From the NCBI RefSeq assembly GCF_022458985.1, contig NC_061783.1, positions 11,708,913 through 11,772,912 on the forward strand: DNA of 64,000 bases, read 5' to 3'. This document shows positions 11,562 through 64,000 of this stretch, in pieces. Each line of letters opens with the position of its first letter. Positions within the stretch are counted from its first letter, which is position 1. The notes under the pieces were generated by a model. It did no database searches. It worked only from the letters and a program-made list of their open reading frames with translations, and was not told where the DNA came from. Source of the stretch: Mugil cephalus. Taxonomy: Eukaryota; Chordata; Actinopteri; Mugiliformes; Mugilidae. Made by a program: the position numbers and the translations under genes.

Positions 11562-20700
<9,139 letters not shown>

Positions 20701-38500: not shown

Positions 38501-39444
38501 TGATAGGCACATTATTAAATCTGCCGGCGACTCTGTGGTTGTGTCTCTCTTGAACAGTCAAGGCAGCGGTCATGACGCAGTGGTTGATGATTTTAGTGAA
38601 TGGTGCGAGAGCTCATTTTAAAAAATCGTAGTTCTTAAAACCAAAGAGCTCATTGTTGATTTCAGGAAAAATCCTCCACCACATTCCCCTGTCCCCTGTA
38701 CAGATACTTAGCCACTATTATTGACGGTAACCTCACATTTGAGGTGCAATTTGCACAAAGGCGGGGGAGGGGATATAACATTTAGACCAAGACTAAGGTA
38801 CGTCTCTACCTCTGGACAGGTCAGCTAGTGATGAGCTAGTGATGAGCAGCAAACGACTGGAATCCACTGCCAGCGTCAGGAAAATATAATTCACAGTCTT
38901 TGTATATTAAGTGACTCCAGCTCACGCTAATGCCGTTTGTGTGTTTGTGCAGCTGATGAGGTTCCAGGTAGCGCTGTGCTGCTGTTTGACATCGAGCTGG
39001 TTGAGGTGGAGGAAGGACTCCCCGAAGGCTACATGTTCATCTGGAACGACGACGTGTCCCCCGACCTCTTCTCTGAGATGGACGTCGACGACGACAAGCA
39101 GGTGGAGCCCTCTGAGGTATGTGATAGGGCGACACGATCCAGCCGAGAGAACTCCCTCCCACAGACGTCCCTCGCTGGACCTGCTTTTACTGAGACATTT
39201 TCACACTTTTCTGCCACTTCCTTTTCTAATTCACCCTCCCCCATCTCCCCCCGCGTTTCCACAGTTTACCGACTACATCCTGCGGCAGGTGAACGAGGGC
39301 AAGGGCCGCCTGGCTCCCGGCTTCGATCCCTATCGCATCATTGACAACATGTTCTCCAACCAGGACCGCAACGGAGACGGAAAGATCACAGAGGCAGAGT
39401 TCAAACTGAAAGCGGATGAACCTGCCTCCCATGATGAGCTATGA
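29590..39444 (+). CDS. fkbp9: FKBP9, endoplasmic reticulum peptidyl-prolyl isomerase (FKBP63/60 type)
   Basis: Ten exons join in frame to 566 residues: 29590-29792, 30812-30957, 33036-33225, 33315-33460, 34459-34648, 35626-35771, 35864-36053, 37986-38131, 38953-39116, 39265-39444. Human FKBP9 has about 570. Residues 1-22 are a signal peptide. Four FKBP domains follow at about 48-136, 160-248, 272-360 and 384-472, each with VRYHY/VKYHY, DG-x-x-FDS or equivalent and an [12 protein letters not shown] loop. Domains 2-4 carry YHYN-G/A-T/S, an N-glycosylation sequon. Two EF-hand loops lie near the end ([12 protein letters not shown] and [12 protein letters not shown]). The C-terminus is HDEL, an ER retrieval signal. 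The paralogue FKBP10 is the alternative; TYNVFVG in domain 1, TYNIVLG in domain 4 and HDEL rather than HEEL favour FKBP9. An upstream in-frame ATG at 29434 would bury the signal peptide and was rejected. Confidence 0.94.
30149..30407. mobile_element. hAT-like MITE in fkbp9 intron 1
   Basis: The left end reads CAGGGGTCTTCAACA and the right end reads GGATCCCCTG, imperfect inverted termini starting CAGGGG as in many hAT elements. The inside is AT-rich with a 'ggaccccct' block and no coding capacity. A clean 8-bp target duplication could not be confirmed. Confidence 0.5.
32247..32729. mobile_element. piggyBac-like MITE, copy 2 (fkbp9 intron 2)
   Basis: Perfect termini are seen: TTAACCTCCTGAGACCC at the left and GGGTCTCAGGAGGTTAA at the right. 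TTAA flanks both ends, the piggyBac target. The element is about 480 bases long with no open frame. It is the same family as the copy at 16042-16556 but inserted in the opposite orientation. Confidence 0.75.
36054..37985 (+). other. fkbp9: fkbp9 intron 7, no supported exon
   Basis: The intron between the third-to-fourth FKBP domain exons is 1.9 kb. It contains an open frame at 36261-36641 with a hydrophobic start, but it has no splice logic with fkbp9 and resembles no known domain. The AG/GAA run at about 37406-37428 is simple sequence. Confidence 0.6.
38290..38760 (+). mobile_element. Fossil reverse transcriptase of a non-LTR retrotransposon (fkbp9 intron 8)
   Basis: Translation shows the RT core order: [12 protein letters not shown], then [17 protein letters not shown], then [15 protein letters not shown], then VVDDFSEWC, then [13 protein letters not shown] after a stop and frame change. 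The catalytic FADD-type box reads SAGD here, so it is dead. Rex1/Babar-type LINEs of fish have this layout (from memory). In-frame stops and the lack of an endonuclease mark it as a 5'-truncated remnant. Confidence 0.75.
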
Positions 39445-42110: not shown

Positions 42111-42289
42111 TTTTGAACCAGTGCAACTCATGCACTTTTTTAAATGTAAGTTTAGCAACAGCCTGCACTATTTTCACCGCTTCGCTGAAAAGCATAAAAA
42201 GATATAAAAAAAAACAAACAAAAAAAAAAACACAAAAACAAAAGTAAGCAAACTGCATCGTTGCTGTCACAAACTGCAAAATGATGCAG

Positions 42290-42558: not shown

Positions 42559-45371
42559 ATGACCATGACGGGCTTGGCATGTGAGGTGAGGGCACTACTC
42601 AGTATTGGGTCATTTTCATTGTTTTAGTAAAGTAATATTCTTCTGCGTCTGTAATATTATACATCAAATATTCCAAAACAGGCTCCGAAACTTAACATGC
42701 AAGGCATAGGAGTGTTGTTGGTGTTGTTTAATATAATTTAAACCGCCGCTATATTATAGACTACTACAATAATCTGTACCCCTGGAGTGCCAGGGCCAGT
42801 GAGAACAATGGGAGGAATGGGGGTACGGTATTATGTCAGCGTTTGACTGTGGTCAAGCCACACGCAATTTATGCTTCTGGTTGAAATGACGCAGAGGCTC
42901 CTGCGTTAACGCAGAACCCCCGCACGCAAACCACGCTGTGTGTCTGTGTGCGCCCAGAAACGTATAAGCTCTTACCGAAACTAGACACTCCTGCCGCGAC
43001 AGAGCGTCAAAGCTGTGATTGGTCCGCTTGGTAGTAGGCGTTTCCGCGTTAGTATTTCCGCTTTGTCCAACGCTTCCCATTCGCAATCAAAGTCAAGCAA
43101 ACGTGACAAAAACATTGTGATTTCTGTTACTGAGTGATTCAGTAATTAGAATATTTTACAAGAAGGAAATGATTAGTGTTAACCAACCGACATGGCACTG
43201 TTCACAAGAGATTAGACTGAGCATGTCAATGTTTTTGGTAAAAATGTGTATAGACGTGTACGTGTGTATTTTTATATAATATGTGTACACGCCTCTCTTT
43301 GTGAATTTTCTGTGTATTTAAATGTAGCAAGTGTTCTCTGCTTTAGAAGATAGTGTAATTTTAACTAATATTCTAACTCGGTTTTTAATACATAAAATAT
43401 TTTTTTGTTAATGCCTATTTATCTGTCTACCGTTGTGCTTTAAATTCATTCTTACAGCTTTTGTTGAGGATTCCCTATCAATAAATGTAAATAGTATTAT
43501 TATTTATTGCAGATTCTTGAAGGCAGGGTCTTTTTTGGCGTAATCTTGTTTAAATTTGATAATGGCCTGTCAGCATTTTGTTATTCAAGTGTTATGAGAG
43601 AACACTTGACTTCTGTGCCTCCTCCTGGCTGTGGAAAGGCTTTATGAAAAAAAACCAAAAAAAAACGGAAGTTTTCTACCAATCACAGGCCATTTTATGG
43701 AGTGTCGCGGTTCTGGGTGGACCTATTGGTTACTCTACATAAGTTGTGCATGTCCACGTATTGTTTGTTTGTTCATAAATTCAATTTGTTCACGATAGAA
43801 AGGTAAAGTACTTTTTTAATAAAAAAAACGGGAAAATAGCTTTGGATGGTGATTTAATATTAAATATAGATCAATTTAATTTGAGTTTATTTTAAGATTC
43901 CACATCAGAATGGCCTGATATTTCCTGGGTGACATGACTGAGGCTGGAATTAAGTGGAATTAAGCTGTGGAAACAGGTAGTTTCCTTTAAATGTTATATT
44001 TAACTTAAATATTATTGACTAATGGAAAAATGAACAGTCAGTCTCCTCTAAGGTTTGAGGTGCGAATATATTCAAAGCATGAATTCATTCATTCTATCAA
44101 CCTGTGAATGGTGAATGAATAAACACTAAAGGGTTTAAATAATTCAAAAGTAATTACATTGACTGCATGTTAAGTTATAAGAAAAGTTATGTGGGAGGCA
44201 CCCAGATATATCAGAACTTTCTGATGAGGAATTTCAAAATTCCTTGAGATACAGAATCGGCTTCTTTTCTGTGACATACTGTATTGGACATACTGCTGGA
44301 GGTTTCCTTTTTAATATGCACAAATCTTGATTTAGGAAAACAAATGCCCCTTACCTGTCCTATGTCTTGTACCAATACACCTTTTATTTATTTTTTTATT
44401 TTTTTTGTTTCCATGTTTCAGGTCTGCCTCACCAAACATAAAGTGGTCTTCAGTTACAGGCAACACATACAATCATCTGAACATCGCCAGGTGGGCATCA
44501 CACTCCATATATGCGTAACATGTATTTATAACTGGAAATGGCACACCATCCCTACCCTGAATCAAAATATAAACAGGACGTTGGGTGAAATAATGTTTTT
44601 TGTTGTTGGTCACTATGAAAACTGCGTTTATCCTAATCTGCAAATCCCTTCATGTTTAGAGCATGAAAATAAAGAAACTAAATGGTAGTTCAAACCACCT
44701 AATTGTAAATGAACACTCATTAGTTTATGGCAGTGTTTATGTATCTGTCTAAGTAAGCTAAATGTAAGCTTGAAGGCCTGGACCACTGAAATGAAAGATA
44801 AGTTGTGCATTATTAATGTATCTTTGTGTGTCTCCTGTGCTCTTTGCCTACAGAAAATGCAAGATGTTTTCCCAGGCGGTAATGTTAATTTTTTTTTTTT
44901 TTAAATCTTATTTTGTTTTATCTCCTCTTAAGTAGTTTACTAATCTTTGCTTCTTCTTCTGTTTTTTGTTTTTTTAATTTTTAGATATTTCCAAAAAATC
45001 TGGTAAGCCTATTTCTTCTTCTTTCTGTTTCATTGTTGAAGATGGTACTTGTAATCCTTGTTTGTGACCCAAAAGACATGCAAAGTGAATGCAAATACTA
45101 GAAAACTTGAGTTTCCTGGCCCTGTGTCTTTTTCCGTCACCTGTGTCTTTGTGTGTGCGGTGGAGTATGTGTTCATTATGCTCAGTTTTGTCGTAGGAAA
45201 GCCAAGGTCCTTCAGCTATTGGGATACAATGAGACGGGTTCAAACTTACAAATCCACAATCCATGCATTATTGATGTAATGAACATCTTTTCATTTTCTC
45301 CCAAGGCCGTTTACCCTACATTCCTTTAATGTGTCCGCGAAAGAATCATGAAATCGAACAGTACAACATAG
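42559..45371 (+). other. Zinc-finger gene unit 1 (exons 1-5, finger 1)
   Basis: Exons: 42559-42585, 44422-44490, 44854-44878, 44985-45002, 45306-45371. Finger 1 is split by intron 1: exon 1 ends LACE and exon 2 starts VCLTKHK, giving C-EV-C-x12-H-IQSSE-H. The exon lengths after the split (69, 25, 18, 66) are nearly repeated in unit 4 (69, 25, 24, 63). The 18- and 25-base microexons are short but keep phase and have good splice sites. Confidence 0.72.
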
Positions 45372-48300
45372 GTGAGTGAGTGATGTCCTTTTGATTTACA
45401 AATACAGTAGTTTAACATCCACACCCCGGCACAACAGTCTCACCTGAAGGACCGCAGACTAGATTTGGGAAGTATTTCCTTCATGTCCTGGCCTGCATGC
45501 AGCTATGATGGACACGGTGTTCCTGTGTATTTTCGCATGTGTAATGTGGAAGTCATTGTTGTAGGTATTCCTCTACGAAATGAAAAGTTTTTGCTGCATT
45601 AGAATGAATTAACAAATGAAAAATTCTTATTACAATAATTGCACTCTGGCAACAAGACTTAAATATACCAGACTAAAGCTGACTCTTACACAACAAGCTT
45701 TAAATCTGTATTTGTGTTTTTGTATAGATCGTATATCTTGTCATTACAGCTGGGGGAAATGCGTTTTATTTAACATTAATGTAATTTGGAGACGAACACA
45801 ACGTCTATCAGACGATTATGGACCACTGACTGATCACTGCTGAAGATGTAAAAGAAATTGATTTGTATAAAATGTCCTTTCTTCCAGACTTGTCCCGGCT
45901 GACTCTGTGTTTCACTCCGGGGCCACAGGCTGATTTTTATCTGTGCCATATCTGTGAGGGTAAATGTTCTCAAAACGCTATCGTACCACACCTCTTCTCT
46001 GGAGACCATTACTCCAACAGCATTGTGAGTGTTAAATATCATTTAAAAAAAAAAGTGTGTGTATATATATATATATATATAAATTGTCTGAAATTTTAGA
46101 AGTGTAATTTCATTAGTGTTTCGGTTATTATAGAGCTACACAGATCCCAACAAGCTGAGGTTCTCCTGGATCCCTTGCAAGAACGACGAACCGTATCCCT
46201 TGCATGAGGACGTGGATAAAAGAGTGCCCCGACATCTGCAGGTTTGTGCTTTTGCATGATACCATGTTTGTATCAAATTAATAAATGCTCTCTTGAATAC
46301 CTTAAATATGAATAGGTATATTAGTAGGGTTATGGGAAGAATTAGGGAAACATTCCTGTCTGGTTTGCCAGCCCTGCAGAAGAAGCCAAGTCCATTTAAT
46401 GTGTGTTTTATTCTCTTAGCAAAATCTGCACATTAGCACCAATGTTGCCACCAAAGAGACCAACCCTTTTACGGTCGCGTTTTTCTTGTCTGCACACATC
46501 CATTCCACTGCTACACGCTAATAAAATCATTTAAGGTTGAACGGCACTGAAGGAAACGGTTTTCCTTCTTGCAGATGCTGCATTTGCCCCCGAAACTGAT
46601 GAAAAAGCTTGAATCAAGCACCTACTCGGAAGGTAAGATTCATCCGTTTTAGTGTTTGTTTCACAACAATGCGCCTCTGAAAATGATCTATTGTTTTGCA
46701 GTGATGCAAGTCCTGAGTGAGAACGACAAGCTTCTCAAGCTGATGGAAGGTTTGTTCAGAGTTTGACGTCACATTTATTCTTTTTTATTTATCACTTCAG
46801 TCGTTTTTTTTTTTTTTTCTTCCCCCTACTCCAGCCGTCCTGCCCAAAAGAATAATGATTGAAACATACCAAAAAGACAGCAAGAGGAAACACGCACTAC
46901 TTGGTCAGTAACATACCTTGTTTTTAAATGAATTAATTTCTTAGCTCATGTCGAGGGACGCCGCTGTCTGGATAATCGTGCTGCTAATTTCAACAAAGCG
47001 AGCTAGCATTTCTTCCCATTTTTCATCTTTCCCCGCTCTTGGTTTTGCAGGTATGCAGCACATTGTCGAATGCATTTGCGGCGAGAGGCGACACTACCTG
47101 TGCACGCTCTGCAGACTAACAATACCCACGCACATGATCATCAAACACGTCCTGAGCTTTGACCACCTCTTCTGCTATTTTGTAAGAAGCAACATGTAAC
47201 ATGTTGAAGTGCACCAAATCATAAAATGACCACACTACATCACCAGTGATGACCCAGCATAGCCCTGTCCTCTCGTGTAGTGATTTGTTCGTCAGTCAAA
47301 GCTGTGGTTGCCTCTGCAACCGGCTTGTTTGTGTCCATTTCCCACCCTGAATGTTTCTGAGAGAAGCACGAACATAAAGATATTGCTGCTGTATGGATGG
47401 AGCTAGCTCTTCTTGCTGTCACCACTCTGAAGCAAATAGTAAAAGTTATTGGCTCTGATGCTCCATGCCCGCTATAAGCATGGTGACTTTGGTGGTAGGA
47501 TTCGAAGTCGTGGAGGCTGCGGTGAAGGTTCGTTACGTTTCCAAGGCGACTGACGAGCACCAACGGACCAAAGAAGTTTTAACTGTAACAGTAACTGGGA
47601 TTTCATATCTGCAAGGGATGAAAGAGGTTGTTGAAGTAGTTTGAGGGTTAACATTAGCAAATGTTTTTTGTTTTCCTAAATGAAAACAGACTTCTGCTGA
47701 CAAGTAAATCTGTTTGCCATGGCTTAGCCGCATAATTGAAGTCATCCTTTGCTAGATGGTGTTTTGACGCTGTAGAACCCTGTAGAGTCTGACTTTGATT
47801 TGCAATAATTTATTCAGTCAGAACTTTAATTTGTTTTGCTCTACTGCAACCAGTTGTGTTTTTCTCTTTGTGAATTTTGTTTTTATTTATTTATTTATTT
47901 TCATTGCAGAAAGCGTGGCATCCTAATACGTTGCTGTCAAAGGAATGCTACACGAACTACACCACGGCCTTTTCCTCCTTGATGCTTAGTCTCACTGAGC
48001 AGACGCAGAAAATCCACGGAACTGACAACGCTGCTATGAAGGCAAGTATAATCTATGTCGCCAAGATCCAACCTGAATAAAGGGAGGCCTTTTTTTTATC
48101 TATTTATTTTTTATTAAAGCTGCCGATGAGTCAAATGAGGCCGATAAAGGCCACACAACAGAGCCTTTGCAGCGACCAGGTGTTTGTGACAGTGTAGAAC
48201 AGGTGAAACACGTCACAGCAAGATGCACTCGTGCTGCTTTTTTTTTCCACTGGTGCTGGCGAACTCTGTGTTCAGGTTTCCCCCAGATGGCTGAGTTCAT

Positions 48301-51300
48301 TTATGTATGTTTTCTCTGTCACAGCAAGTGATCCTGGAGCCTGCTGAATTCAATTCAATAAATTTCACGTGCTATAAAGAAGGTTGGTGTTTTTTTTGCT
48401 TTTATTTTTTGTTTTTTTTATCTTGTCTGAATGAGCTGCAGATTAAGAGGAGCCTAGAATGACATTTCTCATGTTGTGTCCTATTGTGGCTTTCAGCCTT
48501 GGAGAAACTGGAATCCTTCAAGAAGAGCAGCTTGACAACGACCGTAACACCAGGGAGCAAACTGAGTACATGTGAATTGCTTTTTTTTTTTTAATCACAA
48601 AATACAGAAGATCAGTTGTTTTCATGTGTTTTATCTGCACGCATAAGAACAAAAGAAAACAAAAATAAGCACCCTGAGGGCATTTGAATTGGTTACAGAT
48701 TCATTCTTCAGATTATTTAACATAAAAAAAGCTCATTTAGAACATTTTTCTGTTCTAAATGACTTATTCAAATCTATAAGAGTCTAGTAACTCGTGGATC
48801 ACATTCTGGGCCGCGTTTCAGCCGATACAGGTGCTATTTTGTGGTAAAGAAATTTAACACACAGTTGTGCTCAGAGCACATGAATTAACACCTAAGAAGA
48901 ATTAACACCTAAATATGACTTTCGTGTTTCCTTTTGCAGGTGCTGCGTGGTCTTCAAATCGCGTGGCAATTTGCAAACTCCGCTGTCAAGTGAGAGGCTG
49001 TCATTTCTCTGTGCTAAGTCTGCATGTTATTAACTGTAGTAGCAGCTTTCTGTGTGTGTGCAGAGAATAATGACGCACTTTTGTCTGGGCCTCTGACTGT
49101 TTTGTTAATGCTCATGTCTTTTTGTGGCAGGGCTGCAATATGGTCTTTGACAGGATAATGCAGTTTACAAAACACTTCACAAAACATTCACACCAGCAGG
49201 TACATAAACGTCTTCTTTTCAACAGAAATTCTCACTCTCTTATCACCATTGACAGTGTTGCTCTCAGTAGTGATATTGAATTTATTTATTTTTTTTCCAT
49301 TTTTCCCCCAGAAAATGAGGAAATACTTCAGCGATGGTACTATTAACATTTTGCTTATTTGTCATTTTTTTGTTGTTGGTTTTTTTGTAAAATTGTTAAA
49401 ATTGTTTTTCTTTTCATTCAGCAGATTGTGGTGGTTACAACCAACCAGGTATAATTTTCCTTGTTTTTTAAAAAAAAAAAGAAAAAAAAAATCTACAATA
49501 GTTCTATAACTTTGGTTTTAATATTTTTCTTATCCCTGTATTTTTTTTCCATTTAGTGAGAATTTATCTGAACATATATTCGTACATCGAGTCCAAGAAG
49601 GAAACTCAGCCAGTTGTTGGTGAGGTCCCCCACTTGTCAAAGTATTTAACTGTGATGTTAATATAATATAATATAATAATAAATAAGTCTAATTATTGGT
49701 CGCTCGTTTGTTTGTTTAAGGGGTTCCCCTGGTTGTGACGATCATCACCACAGATGCCGAGGTTGAGTCGGCCCATGTGTGTTTCGCCTGTCGTGAGTGT
49801 TTCTATGACTCCGGTCTGACGCAACACTTTGAGTCTCGGAAACATCTCATAAACACACTGGTGAGAATTAGTTGAAGTTACTGTGATTTCTTTAAATGGT
49901 TTGTATTGGTCACAGTGACATGGACGCAGTTCAAGTGACTTTGGAGCATATGTGTGGCTCCAATAAAGGATCTTGATGTCTTGATGTCAAGTGCAGTACA
50001 TATAGTAAGGAAAAAGAAAGTACAAAGAATATATAAAAAAGTCTGCCACTCAGGCACAGTGGAAATATGCAAAATATGTTTTGGTCCAGATGGACTGCAG
50101 TGTCCTGCAAGCCAAGTTTGTGTCCAGAGTGAGAGGTGCTTGCTGCTATTGTTCCTGTTTTCTTTTCCCCAAAATCTCAGCTGTACCAGAATCCGTGGCG
50201 GCTGCCGTTCGCCTGGGAGAACAATCTGGATGAAGCAAAGCTGAGGTCACTGGCATGGAAGGAGCAGGAGGAAAGGGGAGAAGATCACATAATGCTCAAG
50301 GTAAAATGCAAATTTTATTTCTTTTTCTCAATACGGTGTTTACAACTGTGTGGAAATGTACAGAGTAATGAGAACAATAGTACCGTTACTTTAAACTTGG
50401 GCTTTTTTCTTTGTTTGTTTCTTTCTCAGGTTCTTGATCTTCCATACTCGGTGTTTGCGAGCCTTGATCCTCTTCATTACCCAACAGGTGAAAACTGTTT
50501 TTACATCAATTCGTTGCACCATATCTACATAAAAAAAATTTAAAAAATGTAACATGTTTCAAATAATTGCTTTATCTTGTTCTTGAATTTTCCTGCAGTG
50601 ATGAAGCAACTTGCGCTGCACCTCACTCTCTTAAAGCGAGACGGTTGGTGATGAAGCTATTTATTAGTCTTAAGTAACAGAATTGATCCTTGATCACCTT
50701 CATCTGACATCTGCATTTTTTTTGTCCTTGTGCAGTTCCATATTGTGAAACTTACAGCAAGCTCCAAGAAAATTACAAATTTCCTCAGCTAGGTGAGTGA
50801 GTAGTGAGTAAAACGTGTCTTTGGAATATAATGTATGTTTTAACTTTACTTTATTATTTATTATTTTTATAACTCATTATTTTTATTATAGGAAAACAGT
50901 TTATGGTCATGTACACTGAGCCAGAACATGGGATCGTGAGAGAGAAATTTCTGTGTTTACTTTGTGAGCGGAGACTGTTAGCGGATGAATTTTATGGACA
51001 CGAATTCAGTCGCAAACATGTTGAAAATTTTCTGGTGAGTATCAAACTATTCTTTTAGTCTGTGCATACATACCCATATTAACTTTGGTCCTCAACAGCA
51101 GCCATTGTAGCTCATACAGTAGTATGAGGGTAGGCCATAATGGCCTGAGTCTCGGGTCCGAGAGGATAGAATAACCACATAAATCATTGCTAATGAAGGG
51201 CTGGACAGTAAGGCAGAGTCCATAAGTTGGGACGAAGGAGCTTTTAAAAGGGGAGCACACTAAGGGCCTGTTAGGTTCAGTTTCCAGAGCCGACCACAAC

Positions 51301-53493
51301 CAATCTACTGCATCGAACTTCTGTTTGTATCCTGTTAATTATTTGAGGACAAGGGAAAACATTTTAGGACAAGTTGGGTTAAAATGTTGGAGATATGTAA
51401 GTTTTGTCTGGGTATATTTTGTCATCGCTACAGCAAACTATTACTGCCCCAATAGTTCTATGTCACTATTTCATAATGCAACACAATGCTCAAAATGAAT
51501 GTATTACAGATTTATGTTATATTAATATATTAAAGGTGAAATACATTAGTTGATTGTAAAAAACAAAACACTGTTCTTCTTTAATATGATTTTATTTAAA
51601 ATGAGTTGTTTCAAAGCGCTGGAAAGATTTAGCTAGCACAGAGCATGGTCATGCTAGCTTCGCGGTACCCATGGCAACTTAATTTCAATGTGTATCCAAC
51701 GTCTTTTTGTTAGTTTTAGTTATTTCGGTAAATCATTTCTTATTACACTTTTAGCCCTCTGCTATCTGCTAACAACCTATCAATCAGTCACATTTTTTTC
51801 TTTTTTCTTTTTTGGTAAGTACGATATCATCTGCAGTACTATCAATCCTTGTCATATGATAGCTAGTGTTAGCCGTTTGCTGAATCAAATGCTAAGTTTT
51901 GGTCTGCTGTTTTTTATTTTATTTAATTTATTTTTTTCCAAGCTGATGATAAGCTCTGCATTAGCTTCTCCGTGTATAATGAGTCAAAATGTACGGTTTG
52001 AAATAGGAATAGGTTTATTAATGAGAAAGTATTTTTTTTTTATAGCTTGTTGGCTAGCGCCACAGTGTCAGTGGCTAGCGAAACGGGCTACTTGCTAACT
52101 TAACAGAAACAGGCAGCTAATTAATTGTATAAATAATGACATTGCAAAAAGTACCCCGGTAAATTGTTTATGACTTTACAGTACATAGATCAAGCAAATT
52201 CATTGAGCCTCTTTATTGTGTTATATGTGTATCTAAGTTTCAATCGATTTAATTCGCTAATGTTAGCTTAGCGAAAATGATATCTTATTCGTGGAAACGT
52301 TGTACAATTGTGCTCATTACATTTTCTTTACATTTGTTTAAAGAAAATGTTTCTTCCAAACTAGAAAAGGAAAGGCTTTCAAAAGTCTATATATATTTAT
52401 ATATAAGAAGCTATTTGGTGGAGGAAAATGATTCAAGATGTTAAAGTGGTTCTGGGAGAAACTTTGAAATTAACCCCCACATTCACTGGAAAGAATGGCA
52501 TCTTATCTTACAGTATTTTACATGTGTGTGCAGAACCGTTTACACCCGGGCTCGCTGAATTCCACTACTAATAACGCAGACATCTTACTGGACTTGGCAA
52601 AACAGGCAGGACTGTTCCATCGCACCTTGCACATACAGGTATTCTATACCAGAAATGTGACTTCTGTTCTGTCTTTGGTTAATTTTAGTCATGCATTTGT
52701 GCTTTAAATGTTTTCTGCTTTTTAAGGAGATACATTTGGACACTCCCATTTGGGAGCCATGCACGTATAACAAAAGTAAGTATGTGGATTATTATTGTTA
52801 TTGTTATTGTTATTGAATGTTTCTCATTGGAATCCGTAATTGCAGTGCTTTCTTGACCGTTCCTATGCTTTTCTGTTACAGCAAAATCAATCCTGGCATC
52901 TGTTAAGAAGAGAAAATCCAAAGAAAAGCTTGATCCTCCAATAAAACCGCAAATGAAGTTGGGTAAGCGAAGCCATTTATACACTACTAAAGAAAAATAA
53001 AAGGAACACTTTGAAAACACATCAGATCTCAATGGGGGTAAAGAAATCGCGCTCAGTGTCTTTACTGATTGACTGGGTAATGTGTTAAGAATGAAATAAT
53101 GTTATATCATTTGATAGAAATGAAAATTGCCAACCTACAGAAGGCTGAATTGAAAGACTCTGAAAATCAAAGTGAAAAAAATGCCGTTTGCTAGTCCATT
53201 TTGCAGAAATTTTATTGCAGCAACTCAAAATTATACAGAGTAGTGTCTATGGCCCTTTCTTGCGTGCTTGACATTATCATACATGCTTGACATTATCCAG
53301 TGCATCACTGAGCTCCTGGACTGTCTGAAGTTTTTAAAAAACACATACCCAGTCGTTAGCAGTATTACACATCCATGCATGGTCTGACCAGAGATCTTCC
53401 TGTCCCTAATCTGAGTAAGCATTACTTCCACAGTCAGTCCTGTCCATCCTATGTTGATTTGTCTGTCAGCTGTTTATTTTCAGGTACCTGTAC

Positions 53494-53554
<61 letters not shown>

Positions 53555-56500
53555 AGGTAATTTATCGACCATGATCATACAGCTTCATCCTTTCCCCCGC
53601 CTCTATCCAATTACAGTTTAGTTGCATGATTACAGACATTGTGTTCAACATTATAAATATGGTGTTAATTAATCAGTAGTTTGGGAGAAACTCTGAACCC
53701 ACTGTACCAACATGGTGTCTGACAATGGACTAGCCTGTACAGGTCTGTGTGTCCCTTTATAGATTTGACTCCCTAGACAATCACTGACCCTCCCCCAAAC
53801 CGGTCATGGTGAATGTTACAGGCAGCATAACATTGTTCAAAGCTTCTCCAGACTCTTTCACATATGTCACATGTGCTCAGGGTGAACCTGTTTTCATCCG
53901 TGCAGGGTTTTCCACTAAGGCTCATACTCGCCAGTCATAATAAATAAGTAGCCAACCTCCCTTTGTAACTAATGAAAATACACTCTAATGACTCCGTTTG
54001 GTTTCATTTACAACTAACGGTGTCTTTTGATGTCAGCATGTAATTGAATGCTTGAAGAGAAGACTGGATTACCGGAGACAAAATAAGCATTATCTCTGCT
54101 TCTTTCCCCTACGACGGCCCTGACACACTACTGACTCCGCAGAGTCCACACACACACACACACACACACACCCCCCCGCATGTCAGGACTGCAAATGATT
54201 TTCTCTCCCTTGATCAATGAAGTCTGCGGTGATCACAGTAAGTTGTGGTTATTATCGGTACAAGCAGCGTGAATTACAACTTAAATGAGCGGGGTTCAGT
54301 TCGATATTATTGTCAGTCTGTTAGATAAACATTTAATGTTATTAAAATCGAAAAATTAATATTTAGAGCCTGTGGGATTTAAATATAATAGTCATTAAAG
54401 TAGCCGGCTGGACTTAATTGTGTAGTGGGCTCTATGGCCGGCAGCCGGCGCTTGTGAAAAGCACAGGGCGCCAATTCTGTTGTTCTAAGGCAAATGCCAG
54501 TTAAGCTCTACGGTTCTGGACAATTTGCACAGGGTGCACTAGGGAACACTGGGCCTTCAGGCCACCCTGTTGCCCTTGAGACTGTGACCGGACGCACGGC
54601 AAACCTTCTGGCAACGGCACGTATTGATGTGCCATCTTGGATGAGTTGGACTGCCTGTGCAACCCCTTGAGGGTCCGTGTATTGCCTCATACTACTAGTA
54701 GTGATTCTGACCCTAGCCAAATGCTAGTCATTAAAGATGAGGGAGGAAATGTCAGTAATCAGCACCTATTTTTATAGACGGAGCTCTATTTTGGTGGTTG
54801 TCTCATTGTTGCCCGTTTACTGCACCTGTTGTTAATTTAACACTCAAGCAGCTGAAACAGATTACCAATCCCTTCTGCTACTTAACTGACCAGATCAATA
54901 TCTCAGAAGTTTCATTGACTTGATGCTATACTCTGATGAAGTAGTGTTTGTTTGCTGTGGTTCTCAGAAGTTTTAATTAATACATTGCTTTTTGTTGAGC
55001 AGTGTATTAAAAAAATTCTGAGAACCACAAGATTTCTTGCGTACTATGATATAGTTACCCCATGGAAACCAGTCCTGTTGCCAGCTTTGTTTTTGGATAA
55101 GTTAACTATAATCATTTTAAGACATCTGTTCCTCCCGATGCTTCTTCCTGCAGGAGTTAGCCAGCTCTCATTGCAGGCACTTTTAATCAGACTGTTTTCT
55201 TCTTTCTGTTCCTCAGTTCCCAGAGAAAGTCTAAAAGAGGTGGACCACAAACCCGTGGAAGGCAGTGATCAGCAAAATGACACCAACAAGCTCTGTGTTG
55301 AAAATGAACAACATGAAGAAAAGGAGGATGAGATGCCCACAATAAAGGAAAAAGAACCCCAGGCGGCACCAGAAGAGCTTGGGACTTGTTCAGAAGAGAT
55401 GAAAGATGCTGATGAGACGTGCTCGGTGGAAAAGGAGAAGACGGAAGATACTTCATTGACTAAACCAAGTGGGGAAATGCCAGAAAGCTGCCAGAACACA
55501 GACAAAGAGGAAGAAGCAGATGCTGAAATAGAAAGAGGAAACAGTAATGAAAATGCCTCCACAGATGTGAAGAATCACTCTTCCAAAGTGAATAAAAGAA
55601 AACGGCCAAACAGTGAATCTGAAGCTTCACATGAGAACACAAGTTGTAATAAAGATGTCGAGGCAGAAATTGATCATAAAAGGATGCGTGTCTCCTCCAG
55701 TGAAGACGCATGTTCTGAAGAACCCTCAACAATGCCAAATTGTGAACAAAAGGATGAAAACACAGCAGATGTGAAAGAGACCTGCAAGGCAGAAACTGAT
55801 ACAGGTGTGAAAAGTGTCCTCTCAGAAACACCGAATTATTGCATTGCTGATAGAAAAAAAAAGTTTAAAAATTCAGATTCCTCATAACATTTCGCGACTA
55901 ACCCTTAGTCTCATTTTTTTTCCATTTACATGCAATGTGAACATTACTTGATGGGAGGAAGATGAAGCGATATTGACCGTAATTTTATGTGCTTCAGGTT
56001 TAAGTAAGCTTCTAAAATGCCAGTGTGATAACCACGACCCAATCTACCTCTGTGAATCCTGCACTCTGAGGTTCTCAGAGAAGGACGTCATCAGCCACAT
56101 TACTAGCCTTGACCACCCGAAGATGTGTCTGATGGTGAGTAACTGATTAAGATCTTTTTGTGGGTTACAGAGCAATTTGTTTCAAGATGAAAAAGCCTCA
56201 GGAGGACATCGAGTATACAGTAAATAGTCCTGCTCAACTTATGCTCTGTATGTGTTGTCCTTAAATGGGCTTATGTCCCAAGATGACTTTTCAGAAGCAA
56301 GTCTGTGATTAGGAAACTAATCTGTATGTAATGAAGAACTCTGGAAATCTGGATCCAATCCAGTTGTTCTCTGGAATGAGTTTGTGGCATCTGTGAACCG
56401 TCTCCTCCGATGTGAAGCCTCACTTGGGAGAAGGCCAGGATCTTTTTTCCAAGTGTTTATTCTTAGAGTTTGATTCCTCTGATTTCTTCCTTTCTTTCTA

Positions 56501-59500
56501 GGTTTAGGTATATCAGCTGTTGCTGTTAATCTCTGAAGGCCAATTAGGTGACAGGCCTCTCCTACGTAGTTGTAGGAGTCCACAGTTGTAAATTCCCAAA
56601 GTATGTTATTTTTGGATGCCCCTTAAAAAGCCAGACTGGCCTCAGATGGTGCGAAACTGCCTCCTTGTCATTAATTTTACAAAGAGAAAGATGGTTTTCT
56701 TTCATATTTAATGGAAGAAGTTAATGGATAAATGCCATAAAGCCCTCGACAGTGTCCAATACATCATTGTGAAAAAGCCAAATACTCTTTAGAAGCACTG
56801 TTTGATTTGTCTATTTTGGGAACTGTAGAAACATGGTATTTATGGTGGGCTCTCTGGAAGTGGATCTGCTTCCTGTGTAGATACGTGATAATAAAAAAAG
56901 TACTTTCATTTGGTTGGCCATGGATAGCAGGAAAAGGTTCTAGGCAAATGAGTAGAGGGGAAATATTCAAACTGAATTCAGTAATACATTGTTGCAATTG
57001 TTGTCTGTCTGGACTCCAGGTTGTTGAATTGGATGAAGAGGATTATAGAGAGATCTCAAAACAAAGTCATGCATCGGGTAACACACACACATTTCATTTC
57101 ATTTAGTTGTAGCTGGTTATTTCACAGTCTAGACTAAATTATTACCATGAAGCATCTCTTCATCACTGTCCATTATCTCCACAGCCATACAGAGAGTGAA
57201 GGCGATTCAGGCCCAGCAGGACGGCAGATGTGAGCTCCCTTCAACCTCAGCCTCATGCCGTGTTGAATCTACGGACATTTCAGACGACCACACTGAGGTC
57301 AGTCCTCCCTGTCAGCTCCAAGTAGCTGCAAGCGCCTCACATCAATTAGAACTTACCGTGCTGCAGTCTTTTTAAAGTGGTGATCACATTGCATACTACA
57401 TTTGTTCAGTTACGTTCAACATAAAGACCAGGCAATATTACACTACTTTACTGCATGCTAATATTTTAAACCTCAACTCAGGTTTTTTCACCCTCTGTTA
57501 AAATCTCAAGGTCTCTTCTCCCAGTAAACTCATTTGTAATCTTTTTTTTTTTTCAGAGTTACTGTATTTCATGATTTTCACTCCTTTAAAGAATATTTAA
57601 TCAGATAATATATTTATCTCATTCGCATTGTGAGGCTAAAGATGGTTAATGTAAACACAGAAACCCTGGAAACCAGTGTGGAGATGTTGATTTATCACAT
57701 TTGATCTGACCTGAAAAGCGATATTTCTAAAACTTCCATAAAATACACTTTGTATGTGTTCCCATTGAAAGGTGTTTTGCAAATGAGCTGTAACTCTCCT
57801 AAAGTCTAGTCCCACCATATCCTATAATTCTTTTAAATTTTCTTTGACTTGACTCGACGCTTTGAGGAAGATGGACTTCAAATGAACTGGTCACATGACC
57901 GCCGTCATCTCTGGTGACCCCGGTGATGGGGAATTGTGCTTCCATTGCACTTTGACAATACAGTTTTATATCAATACGTCTAACAAAAAATCTCATGAGT
58001 ATAAAAGTAGTATAAAAGTTTAGCAATATTTGAGAGGTTTTTCGAAATGTAGGCATTTCCATTACCATTTTAGTTTTTATTGCAATATTTAGGTTTTGCG
58101 TGTTTCTAGGGGTAATGGAAACACAGAACGTGGTTGCTAAGAAAATGGCATATAGATTTTAGAGAGTTAAAATAGTAATGCATTTGATGAGCAGGGACTA
58201 GTATGTTGTTTGTCGACTGAAACATCAGCAGTCGTCTAAATAGGTGGTTTTGTTTTAAAGGAGATGAAGATCGATGAAGATCCTGACTCGGAAGCAGCTG
58301 TGGACATGTCCGTGATTCCTGAGACCACCTCCAAAACTGCTCAAGTCCTCTCTGAATTAAAGGAAGAGGACACAGTGACCGACATCCAAGTGCCTGTGTC
58401 AGAAGACAACTCTCCCACCTCTCCGGCTGTTCCCAGCAGTAGAAAAGAAAAACCAAGTGCATGTGCGACCACACGTGGGGTGGATGAAACCTGTTTACCT
58501 CCTGAAAACACGAAAAATGACTCCAAGGCGTGTATTACTCCAACTGTGGAATCATTAAAAATGGCAACCACTTGCACCGTTGAAGAGCCTTCAGCAGCTG
58601 GAGCCTCCATCTCCACTGCAACTACCTCTACATGTGTTTCAACCTCTTCCAAAATGACAGCAACCACTTCTGCCTCAAGTGAGACCGTACTGAGTGCTTC
58701 CAAAGTAAAAGCCACGCTATGTAAGGCAACACCCACCTCTCAAACCGGACCCTCGGTGGTACATGATGTGCCTTCCTGCACAATGGAAAATCATCCTAAA
58801 TATTTTCAATCTGCATCAAAAGCTACCGTTCAGTCTCAGACTGTGGCAACATCTGTCGAAGTGAAGCATCTTCCTGAAACATCCGTTAAAAGTGTAAATA
58901 CCGAGGCTTCTGCCAAGACTGCACATGCGAGCAATTCAGTTTGCGCAACGCCCAGTGTTGGACCTCATGTTCATAAGAGTATCCCACCCAGGGCCCCCCC
59001 TCTGACCACGGACATGCCTGCCCAATCTGAACACAAGAAGTTATCTCATTCGTCCACAACCGACACAAAGCCGAGTACAATCTCTCCGAATGTTGGCGCC
59101 AGTCAGCTCATTATAGTGACGTGCAACGGAAAGCAGCAAGTCTACTGTCGGCTGTGTTCGCTCAGGATGAAAACTTCCGGACACCTGAGGGACATTAGAC
59201 ACCAGCAGAAATATGTGGTGCGTCCTTGATAAGATTCCTTATAAAACACTGTTATTCCACGCAGTTACACAGATGTTAACCTCCTTCGTCTGTTCTTACT
59301 AGTTACACAGGTACCCTGGATGGACCGCAGAACCATCAGAATGGGAGAGCAAATTGAACAGCACTGTGGCCCACTTGGCTAAGGTTGAAAAAAGATCTAC
59401 AAGCAGTCAGGTGAACTACACAAGTCTCCTTACACTCAAATGAACTTTAATATGATGGATAAATATGTAAATTGTCATGCATATTACAAAAGTGTCACAC

Positions 59501-62500
59501 CTTCAAAGCATCGGGATGAGTAAGTTGGATACACTAGTGAAAACGAATGCATTAACTATTCCAGCTCCGTGAAGGTTACGGTTTTCAGTATTAGTCCACT
59601 GTGTTTGCATTGTGGAGGCTGTGGTTTGTAGAACCGTCGAATTTACTTTGCCACCTTTTCAACGCTATTTCAACACGAACTTGACATTCGGGAAATCGTG
59701 AAGCCAAGATTTAGAGCAGGACTGTTAAAGGTGATACGTGGATACATTGTATTAATGTTAGAAAAATGATATGGAAGGAAGGTTGGGTTCACTGAAACAA
59801 CAAAGAGTTGTGGACCTGAGACAGCTGTATTTTAACAAATGTTAATTTTGTGTTTGTTTTCTAGATGATAGAAGTGAAGAGTGACTTGTACAAAGCGTTA
59901 TCTGAGCTCCCAGAGGACAAAGGTAAAGATATTTGCATACTTCATATATTCTGGAATGGATATGTTTTTTTAATTGTATTAATACATTACTCACCTAGAA
60001 AGCACAAGTAACAGGAAAACTAAAACCGTAATCTGAGGGTTGTGCAGTTACTACTCGATGCATTGCAATGTGTCATGTAGCTCCTGACATCTGGATTTGG
60101 ACGGTTTACTCAGTTCTTCCTGGCAAATCTTCAGATAATTGTATGTCTTAAATTTTCAGCTGTGGAAAAACTGAAAACAATGGTGAGACCAAACTCCACA
60201 AACAGTACTGCGTGTCAAGGCTTTGGCATGAGCAGTCCATGTGAAGTTTCAAGCTCAGATGACGGTAAGTTAAAGCGTCAGTTTGCACAGTTGAATTATA
60301 GGTTGACCTTCAATGTTCAGTTTCTCTCTGTTCATCCTTACTTGCGTCTGGGTCATCACTCATTTACACATATTTTCTTCTTCCCAGGAATCACCGTGGG
60401 GAATCCTTCAGCAGATCCTCAGGACACTGACTCGACCTACGAACTGATCGACCTGTTTGCCCAAATCCCCGATAGATTCTTTCGAGATACAGAACAACAG
60501 AACCAGTTAAGCCACAGCGAAGACCGTGGTCCAGAACCAGGAAATCACAATGCATTACAGGCACCCCCAAGAATTTTAAAAGGTTGGTGTTGAGCGTTCA
60601 TGTGCTTTTGCGTTTTGTGATTAAATGTTCTAACTTGTCATCATTTCTGGCTACCACAGGGGAACCGACTTCCGTCTCCAATCGTTTGTCGTCGTTCCTG
60701 AGCGTAAATAAAATGGACTCTTTGCCCATCATTGGTGGGTGTGCGTATTGTTCATGCCCGTTATTGCCTGTCATATCACAAATGTGTGCAATTTGTTAAA
60801 GGCAGTGTATCCTCCACAGGTTTGAACTCTATGTGGGAGTGCAGAGGAATATCTCTGAATCCATTCTACTTATGTGAGAGCTGCAGGACGACGCTCTCAC
60901 TGAGTGAAATCTGCGATCACCTGGTCAGCGCTTATCACCACCTCCATTACATGGTATGTGTTAATTCTCGTTTGGATTCATTTGTTTAATTAGTAGCTAT
61001 GAGGACTGCTTCCAAAGGCTCTCTACAAATAAACAGACGGCACCTTTTAGGAACTTTTCCCATTTCTGTTTCATGTAAATGGACCTTGCTAAATGTAGCT
61101 TCTTTATATTCCCATACTTGATCATGAAAAGCCCAAAAGTTACTTCCTACGCGAGCTCCATAGATTACTTTTACTTCCTGCGTTTCAAAGGCCTATATAG
61201 TGGCACACTTGAAAAAGTCAGTATATGTCATAGCCATGTGTGTCTGTGTGTGTTTTGCAGCTGCAGCATTACCCTCAGTTCATGGAGTGGATTAAGGACA
61301 AGGATCTACTCCTGGAGATGAAATATGAAATTCTGTATGACGTCGCCCGGAAGGTTTCACTGCGAGAACGTTCCTACAAGTATGATGTTCAGGTAACCTG
61401 CTCAGTTCATACATGTTAATTATTCATTTAAATGTTTGCACATCAAAACGGTTTGTATGCATAGTTGCACAATATCTTTTTTCTTTCTTATGAAGGGTAT
61501 AATGCTGGAACCAGTGTTGTATGAAAGAGTCCGGACAGCTCCATTCATTGAAGGTGACTTTTCTTTTTAATCCTGTCTTTGTCTAATGAGTTTATGTGCC
61601 AGGGGGATGTGAAGTAGTTGGTATCAAACATATGTTTTTCTCTTTGTAGCTTTAAAAACGGTGCGTAGGATCAAGAACCAAGAGAAACTCACCGCCCACT
61701 ATCTACCCATCAGTAACCCACAACAAAAGAGTGCGTCCCCGCAGTTCAGCTGCTAGTTTTTCCTCATTTTTTCCACCGCTTCGACTAAAGAGGAAGACTA
61801 TGGTCATGAACCATGAATTTTTGTTTCTGTTGCACAGACTCTCAGCCTAAGAAGAACCGAGACAAATCACTGTCCACAGAAACACAGTCAGTGCAAGCAC
61901 CAAAAACAAACCAGAGACATGGCAAAGGTAAAATAATTTGTATTGACAACATTTTCCTCACAGGCTCAGAACCGCTAAATGAAAAAGAAACGGGGTCTTG
62001 TTGCTCTGTAGTTTATGTTCAAAGATGTTGTCAGTTGAACAGTTAAAATATATTTAACAACTGAACTAGTTGCTAAGTAACTAGTGAGTCTATATTTCAC
62101 TCTTTTCAGACACGAGAGGAATGCAAAGATAATCATTTCCTGGGCAAACAGCGACCAGGTTCATCAGCAGTACTAAACTTTTTTTTTTTCTTTTTTTTTT
62201 TTGTTCTCGTTTGTTGCTTCTTGTCTGTTACTTCTCTTAGAAGTTGAACAAAAATCTAATTTAGAAGAGACTGCAATGGTTGGAGGAAGAAGAGCCGTGA
62301 GTCCTCTGGATGTGAACGTTTCCTCATCCATGGCTGCGTCTGATCTCTCTCAGTTTCCTAGAGCCGGCACAAGTCTTCTTTCTGCACAGGCAGAATTCAC
62401 ACCCATACAGACACAATCTCAGTTTTCTACCGTAAATACTCCAGTCGGTCCCGGAGACGAAAGCCTCTCAGCCAGAAAGCGTCCAGCTGATAAATCTGTT

Positions 62501-63607
62501 GAAACACGGGTCAGACCTTGCGTCACCAACCCGCTTGAAGACAGTTTGCCAGCCAAACGGAGTGACTACATGCTGCAGCCCGTTAATGAGCACAGCTCTG
62601 GATCAGCCGCATCAGAGTTCACTGTTGTTCCCCCTGCTGTGACCCCCACCCCGCTGTCTCTTCAGGTCAAAGACGCAGAAACTGAATGTGAAGAGCACAA
62701 CGCACACGCTGTGGACTTGTTATTGCGTCTAATATCTGTGGTCAGAAAGGAAAGAGCCAGCTCCTGTGCTAACACTTCATCTCATGGTGTGGAAGGAAAC
62801 TTGGATTCAGAATCTAAAACTCAAATCAATAACACAAGATGGGAGTCTCAGGTTTTTCCGACCACTACAAAAGAAGATATAAGCCTCTGTAACTCTTCTG
62901 AAGGCATGTTTTTGACAGAATCCTCTGTTCACCAACACATCGCGCCCAGCGCCAGGACTGCTTCCTCGGCCATCAGTTCATCTTTTGAGGACGGCTTGAT
63001 CGGTGGCAACTCTTTGTGCACAACGACAGCAGGTGAGTCTGTTGTTGCCACAGTACCCGTCACCACCACCGCTGCCGAGCCCAGTGTTGCTCTTCAAAAC
63101 GTCCCAGGAAATGTGAGCCCATCTGGGTCTGTTTGTGCTGCCACGACCTTTCACCCAGAGCAGATGCAAAGGTCACAAGCTGACACAGTGATTTACGGGA
63201 CACCTATTAACACCATAACAAGAGCCAGGACACACGCTGTACAACGGGTCCACACTGAGGTGAACACACTTAAAACGGGAAGCTCCAGTGACGCCTCGTT
63301 TGAAGGGTGTAGTCAATACAACCAAATGTCTCATGCTCCAAGTCAACACACAGGTTGTTTTCCTCCTTATGTTGCACCCAACATCACACCTGTCTACACT
63401 TGGGATTTAAATCCGCATGTGGTGTCTCCTTCAGCCGGGCTCTATTCTGGCCAGATTTACCCACAGCAGGGAGTCAATTACTACGGACTCCAAACATTTT
63501 GCCACAGTTTAGCAGCTCCCCGGCCCCCACAATGTGAGAGTCTGGAAATGCAGCAGCAGCATCAGCAGCAACAACATCAGCCGTTCTTATGGAGAGGTGA
63601 TGTGTGA
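42559..63607 (+). CDS. Large multi-zinc-finger protein with nine U1/matrin-like fingers (unrecognised)
   Basis: I do not recognise this gene. I inferred 44 coding exons; their lengths sum to 6300 bases, which is 2099 codons plus a stop, and every junction keeps phase. Nine fingers fit C-x2-C-x(8-12)-H-x5-H, the spacing of U1-type and matrin-type fingers. Cysteine pairs start at residues 8, 88, 226, 354, 436, 577, 896, 1276 and 1498. After most fingers the chain runs into a hydrophobic-x3-P motif (NPW, HPG, YPG, YPQ), and a conserved 58-nt exon follows. Long low-complexity exons encode residues 682-877 (acidic, Lys-rich), 981-1299 (Ser/Thr-rich) and 1645-2099 (Ser/Thr, then Gln/His-rich). A KKRKSKEK patch in exon 28 could be a nuclear signal. 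By analogy with U1/JAZ-type fingers, RNA binding in the nucleus is possible; this is inference. Exon coordinates are given under the unit entries. Confidence 0.82.
45888..46903 (+). other. Zinc-finger gene unit 2 (exons 6-10, finger 2)
   Basis: Exons: 45888-46024, 46134-46241, 46575-46632, 46702-46749, 46835-46903. Finger 2 is C-HI-C-x11-H-LFSGD-H, encoded in one exon that opens in phase 1 and closes in phase 0. The next exon (108 nt) is phase 0 at both ends, and the third is the recurring 58-nt exon. Lengths 137/108/58/48/69 parallel unit 5 (140/120/58/45/57). Confidence 0.8.
47051..48565 (+). other. Zinc-finger gene unit 3 (exons 11-14, finger 3)
   Basis: Exons: 47051-47181, 47910-48041, 48325-48382, 48497-48565. 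Finger 3 is C-TL-C-x11-H-VLSFD-H, preceded by GMQHIVECICGERRHYL. Exon 12 ends at a GC donor (AAG then GCAAGT) rather than GT. Exon 13 is again 58 nt. The 131/132/58 series is close to unit 9 (134/132/58). Confidence 0.8.
48940..49619 (+). other. Zinc-finger gene unit 4 (exons 15-19, finger 4)
   Basis: Exons: 48940-48989, 49131-49199, 49312-49336, 49425-49448, 49557-49619. Finger 4 is split by an intron after CQ, at the same place within the finger as finger 1: C-QG-C-x12-H-FTKHS-H. The following 25-nt exon encodes KMRKYFSDG-like sequence, matching KMQDVFPGG of unit 1. Exon 18 has a tandem CAGCAG acceptor at 49419-49424, so one residue may vary. Confidence 0.75.
49721..50792 (+). other. Zinc-finger gene unit 5 (exons 20-24, finger 5)
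   Basis: Exons: 49721-49860, 50181-50300, 50430-50487, 50599-50643, 50736-50792. Finger 5 is C-FA-C-x11-H-FESRK-H. The next exon opens LYQNPWRLPF, the post-finger proline motif, and the third is the 58-nt exon (VLDLPYSVFASLD), which resembles MLHLPPKLMKKLE of unit 2. Confidence 0.82.
52976..55006 (-). mobile_element. Decayed Tc1/mariner-like transposon in intron 28 of the zinc-finger gene
   Basis: The ends read TACACTACT at about 52979 and GAGCAGTGTA at about 54995-55005, imperfect inverted termini flanked by TA. On the minus strand, 54720-54508 encodes the N-terminal helix-turn-helix of a Tc1-type transposase (DGTSIRAVARRFAVRPVTVS), after which the frame breaks. Other pieces of the same transposase are seen in sequence between 53700 and 53900. 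A stretch at about 53904-54456, starting CAGGGTTTTCC, does not fit the element and looks like a later nested insertion. Two microsatellites lie inside. The copy is dead. Confidence 0.75.
53498..53550. repeat. (TG)n microsatellite
   Basis: An unbroken TG run of about 26 units lies inside the intron 28 transposon. It is the longest dinucleotide array in the window. Confidence 0.95.
55998..57297 (+). other. Zinc-finger gene unit 7 (exons 30-32, finger 7)
   Basis: Exons: 55998-56134, 57020-57077, 57185-57297. Finger 7 is C-ES-C-x11-H-ITSLD-H, preceded by GLSKLLKCQC, close to the pre-finger part of finger 9. The usual 105-132-nt post-finger exon is missing and the 58-nt exon follows directly. Since that missing exon is phase 0 at both ends, its loss would not disturb the frame. 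Confidence 0.8.
58261..60734 (+). other. Zinc-finger gene unit 8 (exons 33-38, Ser/Thr-rich exon and finger 8)
   Basis: Exons: 58261-59217, 59303-59410, 59865-59922, 60160-60264, 60388-60582, 60660-60734. Exon 33 is 957 nt, mostly Ser, Thr, Ala, Val and Pro, and ends with finger 8. This finger is shorter than the rest: C-RL-C-x8-H-LRDIR-H. Exon 34 opens LHRYPGW, the post-finger motif, and exon 35 is the 58-nt exon. The phase-0 intron that normally precedes only the post-finger exon here also precedes exon 33. Confidence 0.78.
60820..63607 (+). other. Zinc-finger gene unit 9 (exons 39-44, finger 9 and C-terminal exon)
   Basis: Exons: 60820-60953, 61261-61392, 61496-61553, 61650-61730, 61838-61927, 62241-63607. 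Finger 9 is C-ES-C-x11-H-LVSAY-H. Exon 40 opens LQHYPQF; exon 41 is the 58-nt exon. The last exon encodes 454 residues, Ser/Thr-rich, then a Tyr/Pro/Gly stretch, then a Gln/His run (QQQHQQQQHQ) just before the stop. No known domain is seen in this tail. Confidence 0.82.
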
Positions 63608-64000
63608 CCAGTGATGTAAGAGGAGATATTCAGTTCTACCACAAAGATCTGTTTAAATGTCCAGTTTTATTTCCACACGTTCAGAATGTGAAAACGTTAC
63701 ATTGTTCTATTTGTTAAGCTTTTTGTATGTTTGTTTTTCATCATACATTTGTGTTCACTCAAGTGTTTTTTTATTTTATTTTTTTAAAATGACTCTTAGC
63801 AACTCTGTGAATGTGGGAATTGTGTTAAAACTGATGTTTGCATTAAAGTTTGTCAGTATTTGTGAAACAGCATATTAAGCTACCGTGGGCTGTCTCCATT
63901 TATAGCAGCAGTCATTTGCTGTAGTTTCTGGAGCAGTTTTATATTGTCATTTTAATGACATTGTAAATTTGAGATATGATTTGTTTGTTTTTTCTCGCTA
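63608..64000 (+). other. 3' untranslated region of the zinc-finger gene with poly(A) signal
   Basis: Noncoding AT-rich sequence follows the stop. ATTAAA at 63842-63847 is a fitting poly(A) signal about 240 bases after the stop. Beyond it nothing coding is seen up to the right edge. Confidence 0.6.

Follow-up and report, generated by a model that had tools for sequence, protein, structure and literature searches.

The window analysed here, a stretch of 64,000 nucleotides from the mullet Mugil cephalus (contig NC_061783.1, positions 11,708,913 to 11,772,912, forward strand), contains at 42559..63607 (+) a single protein-coding gene model, LOC125020411, belonging to a teleost family that bears the placeholder name si:ch211-199g17.2. 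The encoded protein carries nine zinc fingers with the spacing C-x2-C-x(8-13)-H-x5-H, seven of them within a module of about 130 residues (B) and two in a different block (A). Comparison of the modules strongly supports growth of the gene by repeated internal duplication of the B module.

The 44-exon model encodes 2101 residues, with zero differences from the deposited Mugil cephalus protein LOC125020411 (isoform X2), which is annotated as 'uncharacterized protein' only. A preliminary description of the locus had given the start at 42559, the stop at 63607 and 44 exons, and these are reproduced exactly; its figure for the codons was 2099. A gene finder written for this analysis, based on splice sites and codon usage, was run on 42000-63900 without the earlier exon list, and found most of the exons on that list again, including the same finger exons and 58-nucleotide (nt) exons. 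The start was placed at the ATG at 42559 with intron penalties of at least 7 and at 42281 below 7; the two longest exons were broken into pieces, and the stop was set at 63614 or 63691. Its output, joined by hand under the guidance of the earlier exon list, gave a draft of 43 exons and 2088 amino acids. The first 1633 residues were compared with 5.8 billion proteins, the top match being LOC125020411 isoform X2 of Mugil cephalus (97%). The final model differs from the draft by the addition of exons 46702-46749 and 50599-50643, a 3-nt shift of one acceptor, and the removal of a 51-nt exon (54187-54237) that is absent from the deposited protein. The latter is a same-species prediction, which backs the model and is by itself no transcript evidence.

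The reading frame is free of stops through all 2101 codons, and tblastn alignments of ten fish proteins (E 0.01) cover 31 of the 44 exons; each of the other 13 is no longer than 90 nt. One relative, P0110 (2401 residues, nearest to goby proteins at about 40-49% identity), holds two A fingers and seven B units in a single unbroken frame on a contig of 7399 nt. Such a 7.4-kb contig, without room for introns, is as expected of a spliced mRNA, and may alternatively be a retrocopy. A GT-repeat tract, seen as CVCV runs, lies at about 53490-53560, within the long intron that follows exon 28.

The B units were evaluated with a hidden Markov model (HMM) of the module, built on a seed of 42 finger regions from five other fish, the mullet being left out. 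Mullet units 1 to 7 score 63.7, 104.0, 81.1, 54.6, 35.8, 47.1 and 89.3 bits; the second part of unit 5 adds a separate 6.8 bits, and the region of A finger 1 reaches 2.2 bits. The best scores in 124 shuffled and 124 reversed proteins are 5.9 and 3.9 bits, so that the repeat is beyond chance, as had been proposed. When exon junctions are mapped on the module HMM, 24 of 25 fall in the same column and all 25 have the same phase. The intron entering the finger exon lies at column 11, phase 1, in the five units where it is aligned (in unit 1 the alignment starts one residue later, and unit 6 has no such intron); the intron after the finger exon lies at column 58, phase 0, in 6/6 units, unit 5 having no post-finger exon; and the intron before the 58-nt exon lies at column 99, phase 0, in 7/7. 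The exit intron is in phase 1 in all seven units, at column 118 in six and at column 115 in unit 4. Shared intron positions are what duplication of exon cassettes predicts, and since a phase-1 intron bounds most modules at either end, copies could be gained or lost without frameshift.

The preliminary description had outlined this cassette from exon lengths and phases. Its nine fingers are all present, the two A fingers being split over two exons, and their U1/matrin spacing is correct. Finger exons of 131-143 nt, phase 1-0, occur in six of the seven B units, but not in unit 6, where the finger ends a 957-nt exon. Likewise, post-finger exons of 105-132 nt, phase 0-0, are found in six units, each with proline as its fifth residue, but unit 5 has none; no trace of it was found in the mullet intron with the corresponding Chaetodon and Myripristis peptides. 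The 58-nt exons at 46575, 48325, 50430, 57020, 59865 and 61496, and the 49-nt variant at 52727, were all recovered. In-gene duplication is borne out by the HMM scores and the shared junctions, and extends further, to a block of 13 exons.

In each A finger an intron cuts C-x2-C after its second residue (C-E/V-C and C-Q/G-C, the slash marking the junction); a 69-nt exon carries the remainder, and the exon after it has 25 nt. The phases of exons 2-14 match those of exons 16-28 at 13/13 positions, and the lengths are equal at 3/13: the A-B-B' block was copied in its entirety, at least once. Identity between first and second blocks is 54% in Megalops (E 3e-133) and 23% in the mullet (E 8e-9). A single block is present in Scleropages, the sole osteoglossomorph among the relatives found. 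In a tree of 33 blocks, first and second blocks cluster, with first blocks grouped in 18% of 200 bootstrap trees; the second blocks form one group in 0% of these trees, so that a single block duplication is no more than possible. By the approximately unbiased (AU) test, neither a tree with first blocks kept together (p 0.22) nor one that places Scleropages among the first blocks (p 0.08) is rejected. The pattern could stem from long branches, from gene conversion or from the block having been copied more than once. The single block of Scleropages would reflect either a later origin of the duplication or a loss, and the trees do not choose between them. As a separate observation, units 2 and 4 of the Megalops protein P0121 (residues 203-335 and 612-744) are identical over a long stretch that surrounds the finger, which suggests recent gene conversion between its two blocks.

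Three protein searches returned 93 (E 1e-3), 128 (120 listed) and 89 proteins. The named matches among those listed are, by the taxonomy that we assume for them, all teleosts, comprising Scleropages, elopomorphs, catfishes, characins, salmonids, cod and percomorphs; no zebrafish, gar, sturgeon, shark or tetrapod protein is among the matches listed, in a search that required shared words and similar length. The placeholder name is borne by relatives in several catfishes and Electrophorus, and other relatives carry LOC numbers or, in a few cases, wrong names (P0095, 'mucin-4-like'; P0052, 'serine-rich adhesin for platelets-like'). Among the matches listed, the earlier remark that no named vertebrate gene has this layout thus agrees with the result. 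The mullet protein is assigned to the family by homology over most of its length and by the shared unit array. P0151, with an additional PF04818 domain, may be a fused model.

A tree was built of 110 units from 13 species, a comparison that the preliminary description had envisaged within the mullet gene; most unit positions form their own group in it, with varying support; exceptions are elopomorph units 1 and 3 and some placements of units 2 and 4. Because most units group by position across species, the array would be old rather than the product of a recent burst. Unit order in other teleosts is similar to that of the mullet, and the number of B units ranges from 3 to 10 among 151 proteins, partial ones included. 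An extra unit 6 is kept in Centroberyx, Myripristis and Polymixia; the mullet is without it, and 58255-58338 gives a weak match (E 0.63) to the stretch following the extra unit of Centroberyx. Mean identity between the mullet and ten percomorph orthologs is 65.5% for unit 2, 44-54% for the other B units, 38% for the A fingers and 32-40% for linkers and tail.

Some further features of single members were noted. Two Dicentrarchus labrax proteins (P0002 and P0006), with neighbouring LOC numbers and contigs of equal size, are 75-85% identical and appear to be a recent whole-gene duplication. The motif YENRQF, mostly as WNYENRQF, occurs in the C-terminal tails of 24 of the 151 proteins (e.g. P0147 and P0119), from Scleropages, elopomorphs, characins, catfishes, Esox, Centroberyx and Myripristis; within this set it is found in neither the mullet nor the salmonid proteins, and it is perhaps a binding motif that was lost. 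Short tandem repeats unseen in the mullet, among them SGPGAKTGKEPC, LTEYAAGDR and EPVGAQALQNY, enlarge the linkers of P0119 (Esox lucius).

The predicted fold of the B module consists of a beta-hairpin and the C-x2-C...H-x5-H finger, followed by a mostly helical second half, with a predicted local distance difference test score (pLDDT) of 91. The helical half has no match among solved structures. Modelled alone, it loses the strand (pLDDT 81.8, predicted template modelling score 0.60) and gives one Foldseek match at E 6 and no VIA-align row among 9 chains, a result from which the fold can be called neither new nor known. A PDB profile search with the module found as best match MP42, an RNA-editing complex protein (E 0.0023 for the whole chain), aligned over the finger part only. 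Among 15 members scanned with Pfam, zf-met (PF12874, cut-off 21.2 bits) is passed by one, P0008, at 25.0 bits, the other 14 having no match at E 0.05. For zf-C2H2_jaz (PF12171, cut-off 22.6 bits), A fingers of P0008, P0037, P0119 and P0130 score 17.1, 14.0, 15.8 and 16.2 bits, and the mullet protein (P0001) gives none. Scans of single open reading frames (ORFs) and exons yielded nothing above cut-off, these fragments being too short. Also set aside were zf-C2H2_ZN292 (15.4 bits, Megalops B unit 2, below cut-off), LNP1, as well as Prothymosin and other sub-cut-off Pfam matches, in single members, and Spectrin_3 for the module consensus (E 2.9). On these comparisons the family can be described as U1/matrin-type finger proteins with an undescribed composite domain in array.

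We propose that each B module is an interaction domain stabilised by zinc, with a plan akin to that of the matrin-type finger in the U2 small nuclear ribonucleoprotein (snRNP) protein SF3A2/Prp11, which we take to be the chain concerned, the listing giving entry titles only. The B modules would mostly hold proteins, and the two basic, JAZ-like A fingers would be the likeliest nucleic-acid (RNA) contacts; the array, together with long, apparently disordered, low-complexity linkers and tail, would form a multivalent nuclear scaffold on which RNA-protein complexes are assembled. We give this proposal an even chance. It is favoured because the zinc ligands are kept (all four present in 1039 of 1042 family units, by a loose pattern) while the rest evolves fast, because the charge of the B fingers and the following six residues averages 0.04 (n 922) and that of whole B units +0.9 (n 1024), and because the A fingers are nearest to JAZ/zf-met; A finger 1 is basic, and mean charges favour the A fingers as nucleic-acid contacts. 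Several points weigh against the scaffold. B-unit charge varies (standard deviation 4.3; -6 to +8 in the mullet), with 20% of units at +5 or more, so that some B units could bind RNA. The identity of the A fingers, little above that of the linkers, speaks against any fixed binding surface, and nuclear location is suggested by basic clusters alone. The structural match to the SF3A2/Prp11-type finger is weak, covering the finger half at 14% identity and low Z; Foldseek with the B module gave a best match of E 4.3; and Pfam reports no family in the mullet protein at E 1.

The charged units are also the point of contact with a double-stranded RNA (dsRNA)-binding platform like ZNF346/JAZ or ZFR, in which most fingers, beyond the A type, would hold structured RNA. 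The finger spacing, the sub-threshold jaz matches, the one member passing zf-met and the MP42 match all agree with it, but the near-neutral mean charges, the curated jaz cut-off that is never reached and the 14 members missing zf-met make it unlikely. The rate of change has a different bearing. A fast-evolving factor of the germline or of antiviral defence, with modules that recognise nucleic acid or proteins of foreign or selfish origin, would fit the low identities among percomorphs, the variable number of B units and the Dicentrarchus gene pair; yet fast change perhaps reflects weak constraint only, some low unit counts are those of partial proteins, and teleosts in general retain the zinc ligands and most of the unit positions, and we consider it quite improbable. 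A bolder form of the same thought, in which the B module would be a new, teleost-confined zinc-dependent domain and the arrays of phase-1 cassettes and 13-exon blocks a fast-evolving germline or antiviral nuclear recognition system unmatched in other vertebrates, seems to us a long shot.

A sequence-specific DNA-binding transcription factor would also be compatible with the many C2H2-like fingers and the basic clusters that this one protein carries. Here the fingers are single, mostly with at least some 80 residues of module or linker between them rather than in short-linker tandem, and they combine H-x5-H spacing with a hairpin-plus-helical module, which makes this very unlikely. Finally, several genes, or one decayed gene, might have been joined by prediction, as the 13 exons without tblastn support and the predicted status of the deposited protein would allow; this is hardly credible in view of the uninterrupted frame, the like unit order in other teleosts and the single-frame array of P0110.

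Exons of the LOC125020411 model (positions in the window; phases are those of the entering and leaving introns)
Exon	Position	Strand	Length (nt)	Phase	Content
1	42559..42585	+			ATG; first half of A finger 1 (up to C-x)
2	44422..44490	+	69	0-0	remainder of A finger 1; opens copy 1 of 13-exon block
3	44854..44878	+	25	0-1	
4	44985..45002	+	18	1-1	
5	45306..45371	+	66	1-1	
6	45888..46024	+	137	1-0	B unit 1 finger
7	46134..46241	+	108	0-0	B unit 1 post-finger exon
8	46575..46632	+	58	0-1	B unit 1
9	46702..46749	+	48	1-1	
10	46835..46903	+	69	1-1	
11	47051..47181	+	131	1-0	B unit 2 finger (most conserved unit)
12	47910..48041	+	132	0-0	post-finger; GC donor
13	48325..48382	+	58	0-1	B unit 2
14	48497..48571	+	75	1-1	closes copy 1 of 13-exon block
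15	48940..48989	+	50	1-0	first half of A finger 2 (up to C-x)
16	49131..49199	+	69	0-0	remainder of A finger 2; opens copy 2 of 13-exon block
17	49312..49336	+	25	0-1	
18	49425..49448	+	24	1-1	
19	49557..49619	+	63	1-1	
20	49721..49860	+	140	1-0	B unit 3 finger
21	50181..50300	+	120	0-0	post-finger
22	50430..50487	+	58	0-1	
23	50599..50643	+	45	1-1	
24	50736..50792	+	57	1-1	
25	50892..51034	+	143	1-0	B unit 4 finger
26	52534..52638	+	105	0-0	post-finger
27	52727..52775	+	49	0-1	short form of 58-nt exon
28	52882..52962	+	81	1-1	closes copy 2 of 13-exon block
29	55217..55804	+	588	1-1	acidic linker with KRKR
30	55998..56134	+	137	1-0	B unit 5 finger
31	57020..57077	+	58	0-1	B unit 5 (unit without post-finger exon)
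32	57185..57297	+	113	1-0	
33	58261..59217	+	957	0-0	Ser/Thr-rich linker and B unit 6 finger
34	59303..59410	+	108	0-0	post-finger
35	59865..59922	+	58	0-1	
36	60160..60264	+	105	1-1	
37	60388..60582	+	195	1-1	
38	60660..60734	+	75	1-1	
39	60820..60953	+	134	1-0	B unit 7 finger
40	61261..61392	+	132	0-0	post-finger
41	61496..61553	+	58	0-1	
42	61650..61730	+	81	1-1	
43	61838..61927	+	90	1-1	
44	62241..63607	+	1367 (including stop)		Ser/Thr-rich tail

Three neighbours were seen upstream in the window: at 18158-20700 (+) a sushi-domain ORF with a His/Asp-rich exon, presumably susd5-like; at 26306-28629 (-) the gene for cartilage-associated protein, crtap (PDB match E 1e-63); and at 33008-39444 (+) an FKBP gene with an EF-hand match just under cut-off.

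A literature search under 17 of the LOC numbers of the family and under si:ch211-199g17.2 found no paper in the library searched, and the papers listed by broader searches included nothing on this gene. A first guess at the zebrafish relative, si:ch211-13c6.2, was dropped, the relatives being labelled si:ch211-199g17.2; the former occurs once, in a table of genes that predict egg quality (PMC6631549), a clue that was dropped with it. The gene is already in databases, only as 'uncharacterized' or under a placeholder, and the module itself is undescribed. The gene is thus a fish gene of roughly 2000-3500 codons without name or Pfam family, and its exon cassettes are a clear record of a modular protein growing by duplicated phase-1 exon blocks. 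The placeholder name points to a zebrafish relative suited to direct functional work.

Compared with the SF3A2/Prp11 finger, the B module is present in 7-10 copies in most relatives listed by name, and its helical second half is left uncovered by the match. JAZ/ZNF346 and ZFR, which we take to be the proteins behind zf-C2H2_jaz and zf-met, share their finger spacing with the A fingers, which give the best Pfam finger matches; the A fingers remain below the jaz cut-off, with zf-met in 1/15 members, and the B units differ in being a larger domain of near-neutral mean charge. Within the si:ch211-199g17.2 family the unit array is homologous in catfishes, and the mullet model equals its own LOC125020411 record over 2101/2101 residues. 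The mullet differs from its family relatives in the missing post-finger exon of unit 5 and in its seven B units, where the counts in catfish, characins and elopomorphs were 9-10.
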